DNA of 26,153 nucleotides from a virus: positions 1 through 26,153 of the IMG/VR virus record IMGVR_UViG_3300042507_001693. One strand, given 5' to 3'. Shown here piece after piece: positions 62 through 7,906 of this stretch (position 1 is its first letter; each line of letters begins with the position of its first letter). The position numbers were made by a program, and so were the translations under genes. The notes beneath the pieces are model-generated. The model was given only the letters and a program-made list of their open reading frames with translations. It made no database searches and had not been told where the DNA came from.

Positions 62-364
62 TTAATATTTTGGAATTGTTGATGCAATCTGGATGCCTGA
101 TCCGAACATTGTATTATACTGATTTTCTAGCTCACGCACAGGTGAATTGATGGTAAGAATGTCACTGCGATAGATTGTGATGCCAGTTTCAAACTCTTGT
201 GCATATTCTAGGTATGGAATAAATCCAAGCATTGGACCATCTTTGGTTACTTGAGTTGCGACTTGGACAGGCTTCTTGATAACAATCAAGTCGCCAGCAT
301 ACTCTTGCTCAACATCACCAAGAACCGTCTGATTGGTTTTGAAGGTAACAAGTTTCAATGTCAT
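62..364 (-). CDS. Sm-like (LSm-type) small protein, paralog of the gene at 19834-20247
   Basis: A 100-residue protein with no signal peptide or membrane segment. It starts with a beta-rich K-L-V-T-F-K segment, followed by a DLIVIKKPVQV strand, a GFIPYLEYAQEF segment and an ILTINSPVRELENQYN segment. The same pattern occurs in the 137-residue protein encoded at 19834-20247 (MSPWLPIEL, VLTIVEPRSALIEYYN), so I regard the two as paralogs. Such proteins occur in T4-like cyanophages next to uvsW; an Sm-like fold is my inference from strand pattern and size, and RNA binding would follow from that. The ATG overlaps the upstream stop (ATGA), and the stop abuts the gp43 start. Confidence 0.6.
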   Translation of the reverse strand: MTLKLVTFKTNQTVLGDVEQEYAGDLIVIKKPVQVATQVTKDGPMLGFIPYLEYAQEFETGITIYRSDILTINSPVRELENQYNTMFGSGIQIASTIPKY

Positions 365-660
365 CGTGCTGGCTCCAGCAACTTGTTGACATTAGCTTCA
401 CCGAAAAATGTTTTCAGTGTTACCCACTTCTTGGGAAACAACATTTCACGACCGCGGAAGTCATTGATGTTCAATGTTGGATCATTGACCAGACCAACAA
501 GCTCGACCATGTTGTCAAACTCACGCAGAAACAAGTCATACTTGTATGCTTGCAGATTATTTGCTACAGCCAATTTATAGGCTAGCTTCGATGTATCGAT
601 ATTATTCAATTTCGATGTTACTCCATTGTTTAAGTTTTTCAAATTTATATTGTTTAGCAA
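361..660 (-). CDS. Conserved hypothetical protein, non-ATG start
   Basis: Not recognised. The protein is up to 99 residues, helical and soluble, with a well-conserved-looking core (KLAYKLAVANNLQAYKYDLF) and a C-terminal FFGEANVNKLLEPAR segment. There is no ATG near the 5' end. The TTG at 660 has an AAAGGA 7 bases upstream but lies 59 bases inside the MazG-like gene. An alternative TTG at 609, overlapping the MazG-like stop and preceded by GGAG, would give 83 residues. It ends in an ATGA overlap with the Sm-like gene, so it belongs to the run leading into gp43. Confidence 0.6.
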   Translation of the reverse strand: MLNNINLKNLNNGVTSKLNNIDTSKLAYKLAVANNLQAYKYDLFLREFDNMVELVGLVNDPTLNINDFRGREMLFPKKWVTLKTFFGEANVNKLLEPAR

Positions 661-880
661 GCATTAGTCCTTTCCATTCTACACCAACATCTTTTTTCAC
701 AAGCAAATCAATCATGGCTAACAGATCACCCAATTCTTCTTGGAGCATCTGGATATTCGTACAATCTTTACCAGGTTTTATCTGGTCAGGACCGAAACGA
801 AAGCACTTACTGATTGCTTGAGTTACCTCTGCACATTCTTCTTGGAGAATCAGCAGTATCTCTCTGGTATCTTCGTTCAT
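602..880 (-). CDS. MazG-like nucleotide pyrophosphohydrolase
   Basis: A 92-residue all-alpha NTP pyrophosphatase of the single-domain phage MazG type. The metal-binding pattern is visible as E14-E15-x-x-E18 in LQEECAEV and E49-x-x-D52 in EELGD, in two helices separated by a short loop. The family hydrolyses (d)NTPs to NMPs plus pyrophosphate; in phages it is proposed to trim nucleotide pools or lower (p)ppGpp. The preceding gene encodes another MazG-type domain, so the two may have different substrates. The stop of the upstream gene is 4 bases before the ATG. Confidence 0.85.
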   Translation of the reverse strand: MNEDTREILLILQEECAEVTQAISKCFRFGPDQIKPGKDCTNIQMLQEELGDLLAMIDLLVKKDVGVEWKGLMLAKQYKFEKLKQWSNIEIE

Positions 881-3482: not shown

Positions 3483-3516
3483 GCCTTTCTATGCTGTTAG
3501 TATAGCACAGAAAGGC
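3483..3516 (-). other. Inverted repeat between hsp20 and the phosphoesterase gene
   Basis: Perfect 8-bp arms GCCTTTCT and AGAAAGGC. After one mismatch there is a further 4 bp (TGCT/AGCA), leaving a loop of about 8 bases. In RNA reading through from hsp20 this would make a 12-13-bp hairpin right after its stop. The tract after it (CATCTTATATT) is only weakly U-rich, so terminator function is uncertain. The -10 box of the phosphoesterase promoter lies in the loop. Confidence 0.7.
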
Positions 3517-3530: not shown

Positions 3531-4013
3531 TTACTCTTGAAGAAGAGTTTTATTTTTGGTAGATTTGAGTACTTTATCGTTACCACCAGAAGCGATTGGA
3601 ATGCGTTTTGGCAGCTTTTCCTCAGGAATGACGTTCACTAGCTTGACGGTCAGAATACCGTTCTCCAGACCCGCTCCATCCACCTGAACCGTGTCCGCCA
3701 GGCGAACAACTTTCTTGAATGCGCGAGTACCGATGCCTCGATGCAAATAAGAACGATTCTCATCCACAGTAGCTTTCTTGCCTGTGATGGTCAATTCACC
3801 CTTTAGTGTCTCGATTTCGATTTCGTCTTCCGAGAATCCCGCAACAGCAAGTTCAACCAAATAATTGTTGTCGTCTAGCTTGACGATGTTATGTGGTGGA
3901 AAAGTGTTTGCTGGAAGTTTTTCTAGTGCGAGTTGATCGAATGCATCAAAGAAACGATCAAAGCCGACAGTTTGTGGGACCAATGGTCCAAAGTTTATAC
4001 GTCCTAATGTCAT
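3531..4013 (-). CDS. Small heat shock protein, Hsp20/alpha-crystallin family
   Basis: 160 residues, typical IbpA-class length. The alpha-crystallin domain spans about residues 40-130, with VELAVAGFSEDEIEIE, the GELTITGKK strand and ENGILTVKL corresponding to the family's A-x-x-x-n-G-v-L motif. The C-terminal I-x-I anchor is present as KRIPI (138-140). The protein holds unfolding clients and is found in T4-like cyanophages, where a role in assembly or stress is assumed. The ATG at 4013 is chosen because AGGAG sits 7 bases upstream; an open frame runs 27 codons further but lacks family sequence. It has its own late promoter and a leader of about 170 bases. Confidence 0.93.
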   Translation of the reverse strand: MTLGRINFGPLVPQTVGFDRFFDAFDQLALEKLPANTFPPHNIVKLDDNNYLVELAVAGFSEDEIEIETLKGELTITGKKATVDENRSYLHRGIGTRAFKKVVRLADTVQVDGAGLENGILTVKLVNVIPEEKLPKRIPIASGGNDKVLKSTKNKTLLQE

Positions 4014-4050
4014 AAGTTTTCTCCTATAAAAGCAAGTTGTGAAATGATAC
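4014..4050 (-). promoter_or_regulatory. Possible ROSE-like RNA thermometer over the hsp20 ribosome binding site
   Basis: In the mRNA, CUUGCU (4031-4036) lies 5 bases before the Shine-Dalgarno AGGAG (4021-4025). The two can pair as C-G, U-A, U-G, (bulged G), C-G, U-A around the loop UUUAU. This is the arrangement of ROSE elements, whose conserved U-(U/C)-GCU pairs with AGGA with one G out of register. A second hairpin lies just upstream at 4045-4064: GAUAC/GUAUC plus CU/AG around a UUCG loop. The pairing is seen in the sequence; the heat response is inferred from the known ROSE family of small heat shock genes. Confidence 0.5.
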
Positions 4051-4064
4051 CTCGAAAGCGTATC
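4045..4064 (-). other. Hairpin in the hsp20 leader
   Basis: On the mRNA, GAUAC pairs with GUAUC. After a bulged G, CU pairs with AG around a UUCG tetraloop. It sits directly 5' of the proposed RBS-masking stem, as the stabilising 5' hairpins of ROSE elements do. Further upstream, CCGUU/AACGG (about 4149-4165) can form another weak stem. Confidence 0.5.
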
Positions 4065-4185
4065 GTTGTGCTGGTTACTTTCTCCAGCGTACACTAACGA
4101 GGTACAGTCTTATTCATCCGGACGCCTGAAAATGATCACTCATTCTCTAACCGTTAACGTCAAACGGCCCTAAGGTGGGTTCTGT

Positions 4186-4193
4186 TATTTATA
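4186..4193 (-). promoter_or_regulatory. Late promoter (TATAAATA) for hsp20
   Basis: An exact match to the T4 late -10 box on the minus strand. It overlaps the TAA stop (4189-4191) of the upstream small gene. RNA from here would carry a leader of roughly 170 bases before the hsp20 ATG at 4013, containing the hairpins noted above. gp55, which reads this box, is encoded at 19198-19761. Confidence 0.75.
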
Positions 4194-4371
4194 CAATTTT
4201 GACAAATGCAGCACCATTCACAAAATATTTTCTTTGTGGGTTTTGCTCTGTGTATACCTGTATGAATGTCATTGTGCTATCGACACGTTTCTCATACAGG
4301 TTGCTTGTTATGACAATTTCACCTGTGTAGATGTTCTTTAGCTTTGTCAATTTCTCTTTCACTTTTTTCAT
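4189..4371 (-). CDS. Small hypothetical protein, 60 residues
   Basis: Not recognised. A basic N-terminus (MKKVKEKLTKLKN) is followed by a strand-rich body (GEIVITSNLYEKRV, TMTFIQVY, KYFVNGAAFVKIV), suggesting a small beta fold, perhaps a nucleic-acid-associated one. No signal peptide or membrane segment. It starts 9 bases after the regA stop, so it is co-transcribed with regA. Its stop codon lies inside the hsp20 late promoter box. Confidence 0.6.
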   Translation of the reverse strand: MKKVKEKLTKLKNIYTGEIVITSNLYEKRVDSTMTFIQVYTEQNPQRKYFVNGAAFVKIV

Positions 4372-4380
4372 AATATAAAA

Positions 4381-4782
4381 TCACTCTGGACTCTTCTTAC
4401 CTATGTTGTATTTGCTGACTAGCTCCCAATCGTCTTTCTCACGGAAGGGAATGATTTTGATATGGTGAATCTCAGCGATCTTGTCTACCATAATTTCTGG
4501 ATTAACAATCGTAACTAAGCCCCACTGCTCAAGCAATTTGGCAATTGCATTACGTCTTTCAATGTCGTTGTCTACGATACTAGATGGCTTTCCATCCAAT
4601 GCAAACAGTTCTTTAAAATGTGTAATGTAATATTGACCGCGCTTATGTAGGATATGGCACGACTGGTACAGTATTTTCTCTTTGCGAGAAGACACACCAA
4701 TCCGTGTTAATGTCTCACGTACTTTCAAAAAATCATCTTGTTCTTTCAGCTTCACCTCAACAAATGTTGATAAATCTACCAT
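4381..4782 (-). CDS. regA: RegA translational repressor
   Basis: 133 residues (T4 RegA is 122). The protein represses translation of phage early mRNAs by binding near their start codons. Recognisable features are the N-terminal FVEVKLKEQDDFLKVRETLTRIG, the CHILHKRGQYYITHFKELF segment with its basic and aromatic residues, and DIERRNAIAKLLEQWGL. The order gp45-gp44-gp62-regA matches all T4-like phages. The ATG follows the gp62 stop after 2 bases. In T4, regA lies directly before gp43; here it does not. Confidence 0.92.
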   Translation of the reverse strand: MVDLSTFVEVKLKEQDDFLKVRETLTRIGVSSRKEKILYQSCHILHKRGQYYITHFKELFALDGKPSSIVDNDIERRNAIAKLLEQWGLVTIVNPEIMVDKIAEIHHIKIIPFREKDDWELVSKYNIGKKSPE

Positions 4783-5171: not shown

Positions 5172-5455
5172 ACTCTATCCAGTTTAATGCGAGGAACTTT
5201 ATTCCATAGTTCCTCACTGACAACATTTCCATACTGATCGTGCTTTGTATGTTTCACCTGTAGTTCAACACCATCGGGCTGTCCATCTTTTGTCCATTCC
5301 ACAACCCTAAATTGATAAGACAATGGATAAGGAACAACTGTGGGAAACGATCCAGTTATTGTAGCAGTCAAACCAGAAGATGCCGGTGCATATGATGTGG
5401 GCAAACTGGAAATGATACTGGTTGTATCTAATTTAGTTGATTGGTCTAGCTTCAT
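5168..5455 (-). CDS. Hypothetical protein in the clamp loader operon
   Basis: Not recognised. 95 residues: a Ser/Thr-rich N-terminal half (residues 1-42), probably flexible, followed by a strand-rich half (YQFRVVEWTKDGQPDGVELQV, NKVPRIKL). No signal peptide or membrane segment. It overlaps both neighbours by ATGA junctions, so it is firmly part of the operon between gp44 and gp62. It is absent at this place in T4. Confidence 0.6.
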   Translation of the reverse strand: MKLDQSTKLDTTSIISSLPTSYAPASSGLTATITGSFPTVVPYPLSYQFRVVEWTKDGQPDGVELQVKHTKHDQYGNVVSEELWNKVPRIKLDRV

Positions 5456-6033
5456 GATAAAAACTCATTCAGATTATTTTTGATTCCGAAGTCACGCAAT
5501 TGACCGGATTTAGAAGAAGGTATTCCCGTATTCCTTGTTGTATTTTCAGCAAGATTCAAAAGAGGAGGTTTACTCCAACGTCTTTGATATAGGTATATAA
5601 ACTCCTGCTCAACAACACTCAGATATCCTCTAACATTTTGTGATAGAATGGAATTGCCAGGAACACAAACATTCATAAAAATTGTTTTGTGTGGATTTAT
5701 TTTAGGCAAATAATAGTCATGAAAGCCTCTATACTTTTCATCAAAAGTATCATTTATCTTTGTCAAGTTGCGCCAGTGATATTTCTGGCGATATGCGAAT
5801 CCTGTGAAATATTCTTTTTTGTTACTGTCATATGTGTACTCAAAAGATGTTCCACCAGACATGCCAATGTAGAAAGTATCTTCAAGTTCGTATGGCAAAA
5901 CTTTATCACTTGGCTTTTCATCAAGAAAAGCAAATGCATATACTGCCGCAGTAATATGATTTTTCATCTCACGAATTTCAGTTTGAGTAAACCAACCCAA
6001 TGATCTACCACCATCATCATACAAATAACTCAT
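5452..6033 (-). CDS. GIY-YIG superfamily nuclease-like protein
   Basis: 193 residues. The GIY-YIG elements can be laid out as VYAF (31-34), FYIGMSG (54-60), R82 in YRQKYHWRNL, a glutamate at 142 or 144 in VVEQEFIYLYQRRW, and N160 in PPLLNLAE. The spacing is stretched by inserts (about 35-52 and 90-135), so this is a divergent branch rather than a simple homing nuclease of the I-TevI type. It is on the operon's strand with ATGA overlaps on both sides, unlike the inserted endonuclease at 7346. It could be an active nuclease, or a former homing gene now kept as an operon member. Confidence 0.65.
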   Translation of the reverse strand: MSYLYDDGGRSLGWFTQTEIREMKNHITAAVYAFAFLDEKPSDKVLPYELEDTFYIGMSGGTSFEYTYDSNKKEYFTGFAYRQKYHWRNLTKINDTFDEKYRGFHDYYLPKINPHKTIFMNVCVPGNSILSQNVRGYLSVVEQEFIYLYQRRWSKPPLLNLAENTTRNTGIPSSKSGQLRDFGIKNNLNEFLS

Positions 6034-7345: not shown

Positions 7346-7906
7346 ATGATTATTTATCAAATCACCAACAAACTTACCGATGATTTTTATATTGGTAAGA
7401 CTAAGAATCATCAAGAACGATTCTATAGGCACAAGTATAACGCAACCCACAACAAAAGTCAAACATACATACACCGCGCCATGAGAAAATATGGAGTAGA
7501 AAACTTCACATTTTCCATTTTGGAAGAAGTTGAGTCTCCGGAAGTTTTGAATCAACGAGAAATGTATTGGATAGATCAACTCAAACCAAAATACAATATG
7601 ACTAGTGGTGGTGATGGCGGAGACACATCAAATTCACCAAACTACAGAGCAGCTATAAAAAGAATTCACTCAAATAAGAATCCGAAAGATTACGCGACAT
7701 ATGGAATGCTGGGTAAAAAGCAATCTTGCAATTTTTTTGAGGCGATTACAAAAGCAAACTCATGTCCAGTCTCTTGTGATGGCGTTGTTTATGATTCGGT
7801 GGGAAAAGCCCAATCTTCTTTTCCTGGAATCAGTATCAGAAAACGATTGGATAGTGAAAAGTATCCAACGTTTTTCAGACTTAGACCTAAAACCAGAAGA
7901 AAATGA
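7346..7906 (+). CDS. Free-standing GIY-YIG homing endonuclease
   Basis: 186 residues, the only plus-strand gene. GIY-YIG catalytic domain at residues 1-95: IYQI (3-6), FYIGKT (14-19), R25, an R-x-x-Y-x-H segment, E72 in REMYWIDQLKPKYN and N84. The C-terminal 45 residues (VSCDGVVYDSVGKAQSSF, then IRKRLDS) resemble the NUMOD1-type DNA-binding repeat found behind such nucleases. The ATG at 7346 follows AAAGGA at 10 bases. It sits between gp45 and gp44, its stop 6 bases from the converging gp45 stop. It presumably spreads by cutting phages that lack the insert. Confidence 0.92.
   Translation: MIIYQITNKLTDDFYIGKTKNHQERFYRHKYNATHNKSQTYIHRAMRKYGVENFTFSILEEVESPEVLNQREMYWIDQLKPKYNMTSGGDGGDTSNSPNYRAAIKRIHSNKNPKDYATYGMLGKKQSCNFFEAITKANSCPVSCDGVVYDSVGKAQSSFPGISIRKRLDSEKYPTFFRLRPKTRRK

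Follow-up and report, generated by a model that had tools for sequence, protein, structure and literature searches.

What the small heat-shock protein Hsp20 does in cyanophages, where hsp20 is a core gene (PMC3037559), is still guessed at. The window, i.e. the whole stretch of DNA analysed (26,153 nucleotides, a 26-kb IMG/VR virus record), carries upstream of hsp20 a short leader element that is probably an RNA thermometer of the ROSE type.

The hsp20 gene and its leader

On the minus strand of the window, genes for the sliding clamp, the clamp loader large and small subunits, regA, a 60-aa ORF and hsp20 follow each other; the order clamp, clamp loader, regA, hsp20 matches that of T4-like phages. 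The hsp20 gene (3531..4013, minus strand) encodes a 160-aa small heat-shock protein with an alpha-crystallin domain (Pfam PF00011, E 3.1e-16; PHROG 432, E 3.7e-35). Its AUG start codon occupies 4013-4011, and a terminator-like hairpin with a T-rich tail, a consensus match only, lies immediately 3' of the gene (3483..3516, minus strand). The translational repressor gene regA was identified at 4381..4782 (minus strand; Pfam PF01818, E 1.2e-45; PHROG 242, E 3.9e-59). Between regA and a structured RNA that we call module A lies the 60-aa ORF (4189-4371, minus strand), which had no match in Pfam or PHROG; it is kept in relatives, ending in ...RKYFVNGAAFVKxx, and its stop codon overlaps a late-promoter motif. 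By eye, two ORFs within the clamp/clamp-loader block of the window (7346-7906, plus strand, and 5452-6033, minus strand) resemble homing endonucleases of the GIY-YIG type.

Read 5' to 3' on the minus strand, the hsp20 leader comprises TATAAATA, a T4-type late promoter motif (4193-4186), a structured stretch (4181-4070), a first hairpin (hairpin I), the strand CUUGCU, the Shine-Dalgarno (SD) sequence AGGAG and the AUG. TATAAAT is the T4 late promoter (PMC3037559). In several phages, the window included, TATAAATA is placed about 10 nt ahead of module A, so that the hsp20 leader would be part of late transcripts; counted from this motif, its predicted length is about 165–170 nt.

The last part of the leader is a complete ROSE-type two-hairpin element of 44 nt (4021..4064, minus strand), as delimited by a match to the covariance model R2 described below. 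Hairpin I (GAUACGCUUUCGAGGUAUC, 4046..4064, minus strand) reads GAUAC-G(bulge)-CU-UUCG-AG-GUAUC. A spacer separates it from the anti-SD strand CUUGCU (4031..4036, minus strand), which contains the ROSE motif U(U/C)GCU (motif definition in PMC3669281) with its G bulged. The SD sequence AGGAG (4021..4025, minus strand), aligned as such in the R2 match, is the 3' strand of hairpin II, in which CUU.CU pairs with AGGAG around the single bulged G, the loop is UUUAU and the hsp20 start adjoins the helix. A reading of the sequence alone had located at 4014-4064 a UUCG-capped hairpin followed by a CUUGCU/AGGAG stem with a bulged G, and both the position and the pairing are right on the minus-strand sequence. 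To this the present analysis adds that hairpin I has a bulged G of its own and covaries, and that a larger structured RNA lies upstream (4070-4181).

Conservation and covariation of the two hairpins

DNA-level searches of named phages with the window hsp20 region, and with the leader L011, gave no match; relatives were therefore collected via the protein. Queries for IMG/VR hsp20 loci were the window protein, an alignment of seven members and two distantly related phage proteins; the loci retrieved and the named phages together provided 193 distinct hsp20 leaders. The bulged-G anti-SD/SD helix was observed in 174 of the 193 (173 by a first tally), compared with just 13 of the 764 leaders taken from other genes on the same contigs, and with 4.0 +/- 2.0 of 193 leaders when the upstream sequence was shuffled. 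Eight of these 13 other-gene leaders have the same element before a small gene that precedes hsp20. Similarly, in an unselected count, the bulged-G hairpin I was found in 169/193 leaders versus 11/797 controls and about 1/193 shuffles; it is present in 172 of the 173 leaders scored as ROSE-positive. The folding energy of the 51-nt piece alone was ordinary compared with shuffled sequences (z -0.14), and it is the comparison among leaders, not folding energy, that excludes chance.

The element is conserved in Synechococcus, Prochlorococcus, Pelagibacter and Methylophilales phages. Leaders without the helix mostly have a wrong or truncated start, stand second behind a small gene, or belong to a clade with CUGUCU/AGGAG; the S-TIM54 leader is without the element. 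The latter clade, deep and pelagiphage-like (L340, L341, L342, L346, L347), has CUGUCU instead of the U(U/C)GCU motif, with the bulged G apparently shifted by one position. At eight loci (L050, L058, L060, L102, L104, L114, L120, L123), a small gene separates the ROSE-type element from hsp20 and is itself the gene in thermometer position; its product has NMAID(S/A)IQ near its start.

Both hairpins show compensatory changes. First, 111 leaders have C-G as the outer pair of the SD helix, 57 have G-C and 5 have U-G. The change from CUYGCU/AGGAG to the cyanophage GUYGCU/AGGAC is a compensatory swap in which the SD sequence itself is altered and the pair is kept; it tracks the cyanophage clade, hence represents few events. 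Two pairs further in, a second variable pair alternates between C-G and U-G, and S-CREM2 has CUUGCC/GGGAG, by eye a second compensatory variant. Second, hairpin I occurs in 47 distinct versions, with two-sided changes in 5 of its 7 pairs and a covariation score of 0.70, compared with 0.20 in shuffles (reached in 0/500 shuffles); its bulged G and the first inner C-G pair are invariant in this set. Sequences entered the alignments A4 (restricted to 6-nt loops) and A5 on the basis of the hairpin, and their 100% pairing therefore reflects selection, whereas the double changes do not; an earlier MAFFT alignment (A3) of the element misplaced the SD and was left out. Thus the stem proves conserved and covarying in related phage leaders, as the sequence-only reading required.

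The covariance model R2 was made from 23 leaders, none of them from the window's clade. It has a sole match in the window, at 4021-4064 (41.1 bits, E 8.6e-9). When 18 whole phage records were searched, the top match was the hsp20 leader in all 18, with E <0.002 in 17; in HTVC008M, the hsp20 leader was matched with E 0.28. The S-RSM4 leader belonged to the training set, and its score is not independent.

These results bear on the view that the motif regulates nothing, being just a strong ribosome-binding site preceded by a stabilising 5' hairpin. It would agree with spacers that are short and an SD sequence that is common, as well as with U/A-rich leaders, which are presumably normal in phages. 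However, the anti-SD strand is conserved together with a complementary change of the SD from AGGAG to AGGAC, away from consensus, a move not expected of an unregulated site, and other genes of the same phages mostly lack the motif (the 13 of 764 leaders above); we regard an unregulated site as very improbable.

Calculated energies, on which we place little weight, raise a different doubt, about the window copy in particular. With nearest-neighbour parameters, which leave out the non-canonical stacking of ROSE helices, hairpin II of the window has -0.5 kcal/mol at 15 C and +0.4 at 25 C, versus -1.4 to -2.6 kcal/mol at 25 C for the CUCGCU and cyanophage versions, and a competing SD-start hairpin comes out ahead of hairpin II in the prediction. 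In a ViennaRNA scan, SD exposure in the window was flat, from 0.40 to 0.43 over 10 to 50 C, and the three main anti-SD classes differed in level more than in slope. Taken at face value, such energies could mean that the window copy opens below 25 C, which would fit cold fresh water. They could also mean that this copy is degenerate or overridden, its SD being held in the hairpin AUAGGAGAAAACUUAU, which nearest-neighbour energies prefer, or in a long, window-specific helix with module A, as in longer folds that join GUACCUCG to CGAGGUAU across module A and hairpin I; translation would then not be controlled by temperature. We rejected the long minimum-free-energy helix, since in relatives its strands show covariation with different partners. 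Moreover, the hairpin AUAGGAGAAAACUUAU would keep some of the SD unpaired in the loop, the energies that prefer it disregard the stacking mentioned above, and the compensatory CU/AG inner pair of hairpin I has been kept in the window's clade. Loss of temperature control in the window is therefore quite unlikely, and the two-hairpin element is retained as the structure of this leader.

Module A, a structured RNA between regA and the element

The stretch at 4070..4181 (minus strand) between regA and the ROSE-type element, module A, was matched by a covariance model (R1) with E 3e-18. From covariation, it is predicted to fold as a double pseudoknot with two 3' hairpins: the fold would comprise the hairpins CCC/GGG and CYGU/ACGG, the loop of the second being pseudoknotted with GCGUC, a second pseudoknot CGN/NCG, and the two 3' hairpins. 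In 28 sequences, 98.2% of cells are paired and 12 pairs show two-sided changes; this covariation was equalled in 0/500 shuffles, and no shuffled or slid version came close. The family, undescribed and about 91 nt long, was found on at least 120 IMG/VR contigs and, among 84,980 prokaryote genomes, on one contig; it matches no Rfam family.

Module A is present in single copy in 11/11 phage records that have it. Of 90 distinct cases, 81 have regA upstream of it on the same strand, and the other nine are mostly cut contigs; hsp20 comes after it in 72 of the 90. Long contigs without hsp20 usually still have regA (L054, L069, L129, L133, L139), and for this reason we tie module A to regA and not to hsp20. 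It is also independent of the ROSE-type element, because Melnitz and C48C1 have the element and lack module A. Candidate functions to consider first are stabilisation of the clamp-loader/regA transcript at its 3' end and that of a protein operator. A composite control unit was also considered, in which the pseudoknot RNA tied to regA would sense a phage protein or signal, temperature would act alongside through the ROSE-type thermometer, and the two would jointly set chaperone translation; we hold this to be rather unlikely.

Other copies of module A were observed at L011:3850-3942 and L034:3857-3947, and in L054, L129, L133 and L139. Five members of the window's clade (L002, L005, L007, L008, L026) have the middle of the pseudoknot RNA swapped for a longer, different multi-hairpin sequence, both ends of module A and the ROSE-type element being retained. 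The viral contig L034, which has no hsp20 but has the pseudoknot RNA as well as a match to a tRNA, carries at 301-772 (plus strand) a permuted tmRNA (RF04321, 130 bits) that also matches the beta-proteobacterial tmRNA model; this contig may include host sequence.

A thermometer reading and its place among known elements

The Rfam ROSE_3 model (RF02523) was made by others from bacterial sequences. In whole-genome searches with this model, four phage records had their top match at the hsp20 leader: Melnitz-3 (E 1.6e-6), two IMG/VR genomes (2.1e-6 and 4.1e-6) and C48C1 (1.3e-4). The model was matched over its full length (positions 1-69 of 69) by Melnitz-3, C48C1, L079, L080, L083 and L094, but not by the window. 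None of the phage leaders reaches the cut-off, the best having 34.1 bits for a gathering score of 43, whereas a Pseudomonas ibpA-type leader (L158), used as control, scored 69.2 bits. Rfam at gathering level gave no match on the window, no ROSE match was obtained on 221 nt of its leader at E up to 10, and the matches listed for the phage leaders include none of the other ROSE families. The covariance search with the Rfam ROSE families that the sequence-only reading had called for thus succeeded in part: ROSE_3 recognises the leaders of relatives, at sub-gathering scores, and the window itself is unmatched.

The sequence and structure features of the ROSE-like class were observed, as was its location: a U(U/C)GCU strand pairs with the SD around one bulged G, the hairpins number two (the class having two to four) with the SD in the last, and the element directly precedes a heat-shock gene (hsp20, PF00011). 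These features, the conservation and the ROSE_3 matches in relatives bear out the original proposal of a ROSE-like element before a phage hsp20. Judged by its sequence and structure, the element is a ROSE-type variant carried by phages; we keep it out of the ROSE_3 family because its score is below the Rfam cut-off.

The phage element is read as a thermometer because its anatomy equals that of the Pseudomonas putida and P. aeruginosa ibpA leaders, in which a stable hairpin I precedes a weak hairpin II that has U(U/C)GCU on the SD and is opened by heat (PMC3669281). In P. putida ibpA, structure probing shows that of the two hairpins only hairpin II melts; in the Pseudomonas ibpA thermometer, hairpin II alone suffices, and a helix perfected by removal of the bulged G stays closed (PMC3669281). 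ROSE_3, a family of short thermometers from Pseudomonas ibpA leaders, has the same two hairpins, with a UGCC...GGGU bulged-G core in hairpin I, and the same U(U/C)GCU/AGGAG pairing with one bulged G directly before the ibpA/hsp20 gene. It differs in that its carrier is not a phage, that the cyanophage versions use GUYGCU/AGGAC, and that the Pseudomonas control L158 has extra upper pairs in hairpin II, absent from the phage hairpin. Since close matches to the window Hsp20 protein include a Pseudomonas sequence, ibpA and its leader may have been transferred jointly from a proteobacterium.

On sequence, structure supported by covariation, gene context and conservation, we consider it likely that the 44 nt ending at the hsp20 SD are a ROSE-type translational thermometer, blocked in the cold and opened by heat, in a transcript from a late promoter; from these data we infer pairing in the cell, melting by heat and an effect on the Hsp20 level. 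Transcription would probably start at the late promoter about 170 nt upstream. Hairpin I, with its bulged G, would be a stable folding anchor, and the CU(U/C)GCU strand of hairpin II would lie on the SD AGGAG with one G bulged and block ribosomes in the cold; on warming, the weak helix would open and the phage chaperone would be made. Phage timing would thus set the mRNA supply, and temperature its translation.

Alternatively, the two-hairpin RNA could be mainly an operator to which phage Hsp20 or another phage protein binds as a repressor, temperature acting indirectly. When the phage proteins were aligned with what we take to be the IbpA sequence, 207 of 222 were found to have an arginine matching IbpA Arg93, but such an arginine is common among small heat-shock proteins, and the phage proteins do not conserve K98, which is also required in Escherichia coli. 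The precedent is E. coli IbpA, which represses its own mRNA via the 5' UTR and requires Arg93 to do so (PMC10474464). The helix, however, has retained weak pairs and just a single bulged G, as suits melting, and the two mechanisms may coexist, as in IbpA; a function mainly as operator is unlikely.

The many aquatic phages that have this element before hsp20 probably carry their own heat-controlled chaperone switch. If true, a conserved heat-controlled leader implies that chaperone levels should track temperature, and the reason why aquatic phages keep hsp20 becomes open to direct test; ROSE thermometers, known from bacteria, would also extend to a widespread group of T4-like phages. No description of ROSE elements before phage hsp20 genes was found in the open-access literature (subscription journals and preprints were outside the search), and the open-access papers on phage small heat-shock proteins covered here, including PMC3037559, do not treat the leader.

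Among bacterial elements, the long ROSE elements (rhizobial, and E. coli/Salmonella ibpA) share with the phage element the U(U/C)GCU anti-SD strand, the bulged G and the position before heat-shock genes, but have three to four hairpins (PMC3669281) instead of two. The ROSE-like descriptor of Robo-Therm (h3 NCUU:GAGN, bulge G, h4 CUNN:NNAG; PMC11342760) has the same NCUU/G/CU-AG/GAG core; the elements reported with it are bacterial and precede ABC-transporter genes, phages being unmentioned in the text. Few phage RNA thermometers are known so far: lambda cIII, SPbeta blyA and Caudoviricetes sigma70 (PMC11182007). These are temperature-responsive RNAs carried by phage genomes, as the element described here would be; blyA and sigma70 are of the fourU type and lambda cIII is a switch between alternative structures, and none of the three stands before a small heat-shock gene.
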